Source: Candidatus Rokuibacteriota bacterium (GTDB lineage Bacteria > Methylomirabilota > Methylomirabilia > Rokubacteriales > CSP1-6). Taken from it: a stretch of 64,000 nt of DNA. Shown piece after piece: positions 51,209-51,989 of the stretch; the stretch's first letter is position 1; every line of letters starts with the position of its first letter. The DNA is taken from assembly GCA_016866775.1 (NCBI GenBank), contig VGLJ01000005.1, positions 62,001-126,000 on the forward strand. Reading direction: 5' to 3'. A model generated the notes under the pieces. The model saw only the letters and a list, made by a program, of their open reading frames with translations, had not been told where the DNA came from and made no database searches. A program made the translations under genes and the position numbers.

Positions 51209-51349
51209 CTCCGCTGCGGCGAAGTTGGACGAGCAGGGCGGCGGACATTCGAGAGACCGTTCGATTGCCATCAAATTGCGCCGTGCACACCATTGGTCTG
51301 CCCAACTATTATTCGACTGCTCGGGCGACCGCGCGATCGCATACACCGG

Positions 51350-51464
51350 TGGATGCTAGACATCCAGACCTGGATGCCGGCATCACTGTATGGATGCCGC
51401 GGCGGTATCTGCATCTGGATGCTTCTTTTTCGAGGCCGTCGCATCCAGTTCTGGATGCGACGGC
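51350..51464. repeat. Array of TGGATGC motifs with nested palindromes
   Basis: Five direct copies of TGGATGC begin at 51350, 51371, 51391, 51416 and 51452. Inverted arms make hairpins: CATCCAG/CTGGATG (51361-51376), the self-complementary GATGCCGGCATC near 51373, and GCCGTCGCATCCAG / CTGGATGCGACGGC (51435-51464, 14 bp with a TT loop). The array overlaps the 3' end of the minus-strand gene 51383-51808. Confidence 0.75.
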
Positions 51465-51808
51465 GCAACGATCCGACGCCTCAAGCCGAGAGACACAACA
51501 CGGTCGTAGCGCAGGTGCCAGACCTTCCGGTCAGGATTCCACGCACCGCCGGCGTGCTTCACGCGCGCTCGGGTCGCACTATCGGCGAACGCGACCTGGA
51601 CGGCGACGATCTCGTCAGCGGCGAAGCCGGGCTGCCAGTCCGACTCGGCGACGACCAGCTCGATGGTCTTGATGCGCTTTTTCCGCGCGGAGTCATAGCG
51701 GTAGCGCACGCACATCAAGCGAGCTCCATACTCCTCGACGAGCCGCTTTGTTCCCTTCTGGCCCGGTTTGAGATGAAGCCCGACAGGTGCGGAGGCAAGA
51801 CGCGGCAC
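51383..51808 (-). CDS. Small protein of unknown family next to palindrome array
   Basis: 141 residues, no signal or membrane segment, very basic. The ordered core is LHLKPGQKGTKRLVEEYGAR, LMCVRYRYDSARKKRIKTIE, LVVAESDWQPGFAADEIVAV, and DSATRARVKHAGGAWNPDRK with VWHLRYDRVVSLGLRRRIV; the pattern AGG-x-WNPDRKVW-x-L looks like a conserved small-domain signature I cannot name. The last 30 residues are encoded within the TGGATGC array and may not be part of the fold. TGGATGC and GATGCG/CGCATC hairpins also lie upstream (51821-51889). Possibly a DNA-binding or mobility protein acting on its own flanking repeats. Confidence 0.6.
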   Translation of the reverse strand: MPRLASAPVGLHLKPGQKGTKRLVEEYGARLMCVRYRYDSARKKRIKTIELVVAESDWQPGFAADEIVAVQVAFADSATRARVKHAGGAWNPDRKVWHLRYDRVVSLGLRRRIVAPSHPELDATASKKKHPDADTAAASIQ

Positions 51809-51889
51809 CGGGTAAGGGCGCTTCCGCTCGTGGAGCGCTCACGTGGATGCGGCGTCGCATCGCGACGGCACCGGGTACTGGAGCGGAAG
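51803..51889. repeat. Upstream palindrome block: direct and inverted repeats
   Basis: CGGCACCGGGTA occurs at 51803-51814 and 51866-51877. CTTCCGCTC (51821-51829) faces GAGCGGAAG (51881-51889). Inside lies GATGCG/CGCATC (51846-51861), with one more TGGATGC at 51844. This mirrors the array at the other end of the small gene. Confidence 0.65.
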
Positions 51890-51989
51890 TTCCACGGAAC
51901 GCTTGTCACGACCTCGCTCCGCCTCGCTCAGTCGGGACGATAATCCAGCGGGCTTTCTTCACACAAGTGTCTGTTCCGATACAGAGCGC

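Follow-up and report, generated by a model that had tools for sequence, protein, structure and literature searches.

Integrons are a major natural system of gene capture. A small gene, here called X, and the array of palindromes at its 3' end constitute, with a probability that we put at roughly 55%, an accessory module found in one class of chromosomal integrons, where protein X would bind the array and act on attI in cassette capture or in array transcription. The genomic association of X with integrons is solid, and the X unit is at home on the attI side of integrons. The adjacency of gene and array, their order, the conserved spacing of the palindromes, the concerted change of their words and the GTT ends of the units are all observed. 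X is apparently an undescribed family beside the gene-capture site of bacterial integrons, and it suggests a hitherto unreported control protein for gene capture.

Gene X and the palindromes of the window

The window, the whole stretch of 64,000 nucleotides that was analysed, belongs to contig C5 in a genome of 5.13 Mb whose closest relatives with a name are Candidatus Rokubacteria, and its gene X (Table 1) is the 141-residue minus-strand frame that the first-pass annotation had described as bracketed on both sides by TGGATGC palindromes. The five TGGATGC copies reported at its 3' end are in place, with plus-strand starts at 51350, 51371, 51391, 51416 and 51452 (start-to-start distances of 21, 20, 25 and 36 bp) and a GCATCCA at 51441, as is the perfect 14-bp stem at 51435-51464; the repeats do reach into the coding 3' end, the last codons of X overlapping the start of the array. 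Five 18-bp palindromes are built on this word, in the spacing series 36-25-20-21 followed by 41 bp to a GTT (51304-51306) within which the crossover of the unit would lie. Against a template of palindromes spaced 25-20-20(±1), derived from homologues, this 3' flank scores 21/28, the best of 5,000 shuffles being 20. The window contains 15 copies of TGGATGC where 8.0 would be expected, a count attained by 2 of 100 shuffles, and seven of the 15 copies are concentrated in these 500 bp.

On the 5' side, a further TGGATGC (51844), the nested inverted repeats CTTCCGCTC/GAGCGGAAG (51821-51829/51881-51889) and the duplicated CGGCACCGGGTA (51803 and 51866) are also present as reported. Repeats thus exist on both sides of X in the window, but the family keeps the 3' array only, no array being found upstream of 90 homologues, and the 5' bracket seems to be a local duplication. 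The doubled CGGCACCGGGTA and inverted CTTCCGCTC of window positions 51803-51889 are absent from the relatives compared by eye.

Protein X of the window has no match in Pfam, NCBIfam or the defence library PADLOC, unlike 23 of 30 related proteins, which give weak matches (best E 6e-6) to DUF5710 (PF18974), a family without assigned function. The motif LKPGQKGT is invariant across the X alignment. No transposase motif had been recognised in the first reading, and X indeed matches no transposase family at E up to 1, nor do 30 members of its own family at 0.1. A fold search with two models returned nothing similar from the PDB, as did a search by sequence, and recognised no known DNA-binding fold.

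Table 1. Features of the X unit in the window
Feature	Position	Strand	Description
Gene X	51383..51808	minus	141 aa, GTG start, LKPGQKGT family; open frame, homologues and alignment
Palindrome P1	51441..51458	minus	GCATCCAGAACTGGATGC, 7/7 arm pairs; centre of the 14-bp stem 51435-51464
Palindrome P2	51405..51422	minus	GCATCCAGATGCAGATAC, 4/7 arm pairs; 36 bp from P1
Palindrome P3	51380..51397	minus	GCATCCATACAGTGATGC, 5/7 arm pairs; 25 bp from P2
Palindrome P4	51360..51377	minus	GCATCCAGGTCTGGATGT, 6/7 arm pairs; 20 bp from P3
Palindrome P5	51339..51356	minus	GCATCCACCGGTGTATGC, 6/7 arm pairs; 21 bp from P4; centre 41 bp from GTT core
attI-like right end of X unit	51304..51320	minus	GCAGTCGAATAATAGTT; same end in Rokubacterial copies and likeness to attI cores beside Rokubacterial integrases
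5' part of X unit	51809..51985	minus	homologous to leader of other Rokubacterial copies; aligned over 51823-51931, further match by eye; left end approximate

Homologues, integrases and attI

Among relatives the distribution of X is patchy: 14 of 99 genomes have it, in as many as 4 copies each, many of them truncated, and the relatives searched included no second genome from the window's genus. Eighty further X loci are spread over Rokubacteria, Geobacter with other Desulfuromonadales, Nitrospirae, Nitrospinaceae, an Acidobacterium, Gammaproteobacteria and some additional groups; X is scarce in the class of Thiorhodococcus (11 genomes of 369 sampled), and the queries used found no homologue in plasmid and phage collections. 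That homologues should carry palindromes beside them was borne out in most cases and in several phyla, on the downstream side: at 74 loci, perfect palindromes numbered 1.6 per locus downstream, 0.65 upstream and 0.5 in shuffled sequence, about three times the shuffle level downstream and no excess upstream, and palindromes of the 7-4-7 form numbered 2.5 vs 0.4.

X adjoins an integron-type integrase, whole or fragmentary, in 42 of the 80 fetched loci, and all ten tested integrases beside X match TIGR02249, nine above the cut-off and one as a fragment. Of 117 genomes sampled evenly across the Geobacter order, 48 have intI. Long integrases (n=45; about 300-362 bits, frames mostly 400-530 aa) were counted by hand from coordinates; four lie at contig ends, and among the 41 assessable 30 have a divergent X within about 0.6 kb and 11 have none, while X stands beside 0 of 12 ordinary integrases. 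At the loci of this order X pairs with N-terminally extended integrases and not with ordinary ones. X is divergent from the long integrase in Desulfobacterota and Nitrospirota, and codirectional behind the integrase in a few other lineages; at L033, L056 and L093 it follows the integrase codirectionally after a gap of only tens of bp. Integrases of 450-500 aa at L070:2476-3876 (minus strand), L232, L235 and other Geobacter-order loci carry about 150 additional conserved residues at the N-terminus (WLRYYLDFCxKY...), ahead of the SAM-like domain.

Arrays of the Geobacter type end in forms such as CCGGTNAATAACGA followed by GTTRRRY, an ORF often beginning soon after, and at the X-bearing loci checked clear attI cores stand after X and its array, with none between intI and X. 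Six of the 11 X-less long-intI integrons have an attI core, CAATAACGA followed by GTT, near intI (searched as CAATAACGAGTTG with at most 2 mismatches); read outward from intI, 0 of the 11 have an array, their template scores of 14-18/28 being at background level. Since the same core lies near intI where X is missing, the site after the array is attI, which places X with its array between intI and attI. X is not essential, because these 11 of 41 long-intI integrons do without it. Sites of attC type were found in the arrays of L016 and L056 and, by eye, of L127 and L070; a simple attC scan with R and L boxes found none at the X arrays.

Many X copies, that of the window included, have no neighbouring integrase. 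The integrases of the window's own genome are on contigs C66 and C14, not on C5; one is full-length and one partial (G000:C66:21826-22770 and G000:C14:51602-52363), and both are without an adjacent X. Across Rokubacteria, X and intI co-occur no more often than expected (7/13 vs 19/44). Rokubacterial X copies form a common unit of about 763 bp with sharp ends and unrelated DNA outside, the left end usually being GTTCGGC and the right end GCAGTCSAATAGTA followed by GTT. Several have a GTT core at both ends, the left end of the window copy being only approximate, and the right end resembles the cores beside Rokubacterial integrases (GTCGAATTCTA followed by GTTAGGC, GGATAATAGTA by GTTAGAC, GCCGAATGATA by GTTCGGC). 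Beyond the GTT of the window unit, the DNA begins with GTTGGGCAGACCAATGG, which resembles the start of DNA at attI elsewhere (GTTGGGCAGACCAATTGC, L190). A second X unit of the same genome (G000:C84:13239-13430, L002) is truncated, with palindromes at distances of 142 and 41 bp from the GTT. For the window copy, the most fitting reading is a solo X unit that moved or was left behind without an integrase.

Three further observations concern individual loci. In two species (L127:13274 and L128:385-411) an X unit occupies the same position 3' of a branched-chain amino-acid permease-like gene, and no integrase was found there. The sequence GAACTAAACCGCT occurs to the right of GTT at L018, L185, L063 and L150, which comprise a Rokubacterial X unit, a Rokubacterial integrase and Geobacter loci, and is possibly a cassette start shared by the four. 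A Geomonas locus (L052:7558-8107) has a 21-bp tandem repeat downstream, in about 18 or more copies.

The solo copies bear on the idea that X is ordinary cassette cargo which tends to sit first, its palindromes being the unusual attC of that cassette. Such a cassette would account for solo copies that have GTT ends and are followed by cassette-like ORFs, and for a sharply bounded Rokubacterial unit with an attI-like left neighbour: at L027 and L127 this neighbour resembles a different attI type, the one that in the window's genome comes shortly after the C66 integrase and is followed there by other DNA. It accords poorly with the core near intI in X-less integrons of the same type, which makes the site after the array attI, and with the intI-X gap of tens of bp at L033, L056 and L093. 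Furthermore, single-strand folding of the 3' region did yield stems, but these were many alternative ones, since pairing between different palindromes is possible, and no consistent attC-like fold was seen. We consider that X is improbable as mere cargo.

Array geometry and concerted change of the palindromes

When 5,376 triples of spacings between 18-bp palindromes were scanned, 25-20-20 was the best, with 10 loci at 23/28 or more (99.9th percentile of triples, 2.6). A template score of at least 20 was reached by 34 of 91 X loci, by 0 of 90 upstream regions and by no shuffles. The array typically ends about 30-41 bp from the GTTRRRY crossover, and in Desulfobacterota the distances to GTT cluster at 33, 43, 53, 63, 73 and 98 bp, those of Rokubacteria clustering at 50, 95 and 130 bp. 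A helical phasing of the palindromes relative to attI looked strong and was rejected, as the 25-bp spacings break strict phase and related loci are non-independent; our claim is that the palindromes hold fixed positions relative to attI, rather than a fixed phase.

This spacing is kept between phyla while the letters of the palindromes shift in step with the protein. The palindrome word is specific to the X clade (for example GCATCTAATATTAGATGC, GTTTATANNNNTATAAAC and TTTCCTATATAGGAAA), paralogous X genes in one genome also have distinct characteristic words, and 3' k-mer similarity tracks protein identity (Mantel r 0.67, 0 of 1,000 permutations). Arm identity is 0.79 inside arrays vs 0.53-0.57 between arrays whose X proteins are less than 60% identical, the latter range holding for same and different positions alike; where the proteins are more than 75% identical position counts, with 0.92 for the same position vs 0.77. 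The sites of one array change in concert, as expected if one protein reads them all. Concerted words could also arise without a binding protein, through a homogenising repeat process.

Palindromes so closely linked to a protein, present in several and partly decayed copies per genome, might also be those of a selfish element of the REP/RAYT or IS200/IS605 kind that accumulates at integrons by chance. X does share small palindromes adjoining the gene with REP-associated tyrosine transposases and IS200/IS605 elements, and the first-pass annotation had suggested on this model that the gene may act on, or spread with, its palindromes. The part of that suggestion which treats gene and palindromes as one unit stands, the two being kept together across phyla, with word and protein clade varying together; the part that likens them to a REP- or IS200-like system does not. 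No transposase family is matched, Y1/HUH included, and the hairpins are not dispersed: within the 5.13 Mb a perfect GCATCCANNNNTGGATGC occurs just twice, each time in an X unit. The ends of the unit are integron GTT cores, and most long integrases carry an X copy at the same place. We give a selfish origin very little credence.

Predicted role and comparison with known systems

In the mechanism that we propose, with a home order of intI, X, palindrome array, attI and cassettes, X would bind the 18-bp palindromes as an oligomer, probably on duplex DNA because the spacings are fixed, and the edge of the X-array complex would stand about 30-41 bp from the attI crossover. The complex would then govern attI, most likely in cassette recombination, where it could help, limit or orient insertion, and possibly in transcription into the array. 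Binding, oligomerisation and the effect at attI are predictions made from sequence. In Rokubacteria the unit, which ends in an attI-like site, may also move without an integrase, by recombination at GTT. Recombination control is ranked above transcription control because the sites lie 3' of X at a near-fixed distance from the crossover, and because the promoter signal 5' of X, visible by eye in some loci, is barely above that of shuffles (8.34 vs 8.01).

In an alternative reading X has no recombination role and regulates transcription into the cassettes, binding the palindromes as DNA or as leader-RNA hairpins and repressing or antiterminating. Lying between X and the first cassette and in the same direction, the array would be transcribed ahead of the cassettes, which speaks for such a regulator; a fixed 25-20-20 spacing and a near-fixed crossover distance would, however, be unnecessary for RNA hairpins, and the faintness of the promoter signal also counts against it. 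A regulator of this kind is unlikely in our view, although it deserves serious weighing. Within the accessory-module reading, we tentatively suggest that X and its fast-changing but rigidly spaced array form an attI switch that sets the timing or direction of cassette capture, and that the two can move by themselves as a unit bearing attI. If true, this switch would be an extra layer of gene-capture control present in several phyla. As a conserved addition to the platform, X and its array would allow direct tests of how chromosomal integrons control cassette capture. Furthermore, X-palindrome pairs, several per genome and with differing words, offer a natural series for the joint change of a DNA-binding protein and its sites.

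Described integron platforms usually consist of an integrase, attI and a promoter. The loci reported here share with them a TIGR02249 integrase and attI, between which X stands, and GTTRRRY cores, here behind the array; they differ in having a gene and palindrome array between intI and attI, for which the papers searched gave no counterpart. An extra gene and site array beside attI in most long-integrase integrons of an order would be a missing platform component. Titles and abstracts of the open full-text literature, with subscription papers outside this scope, gave no recognised account of such an arrangement, and the Geobacter passages of two integron surveys (PMC2426708, PMC3108266) mention no such gene or array; the novelty of the X-array module is likely, not certain. 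Among the accessory factors of tyrosine recombinases, phage lambda Xis offers an analogy only: it too is small and basic and has a series of sites next to a recombination core, whereas X has no sequence or fold relation to it that we could see, and the putative sites of X are known from their geometry.
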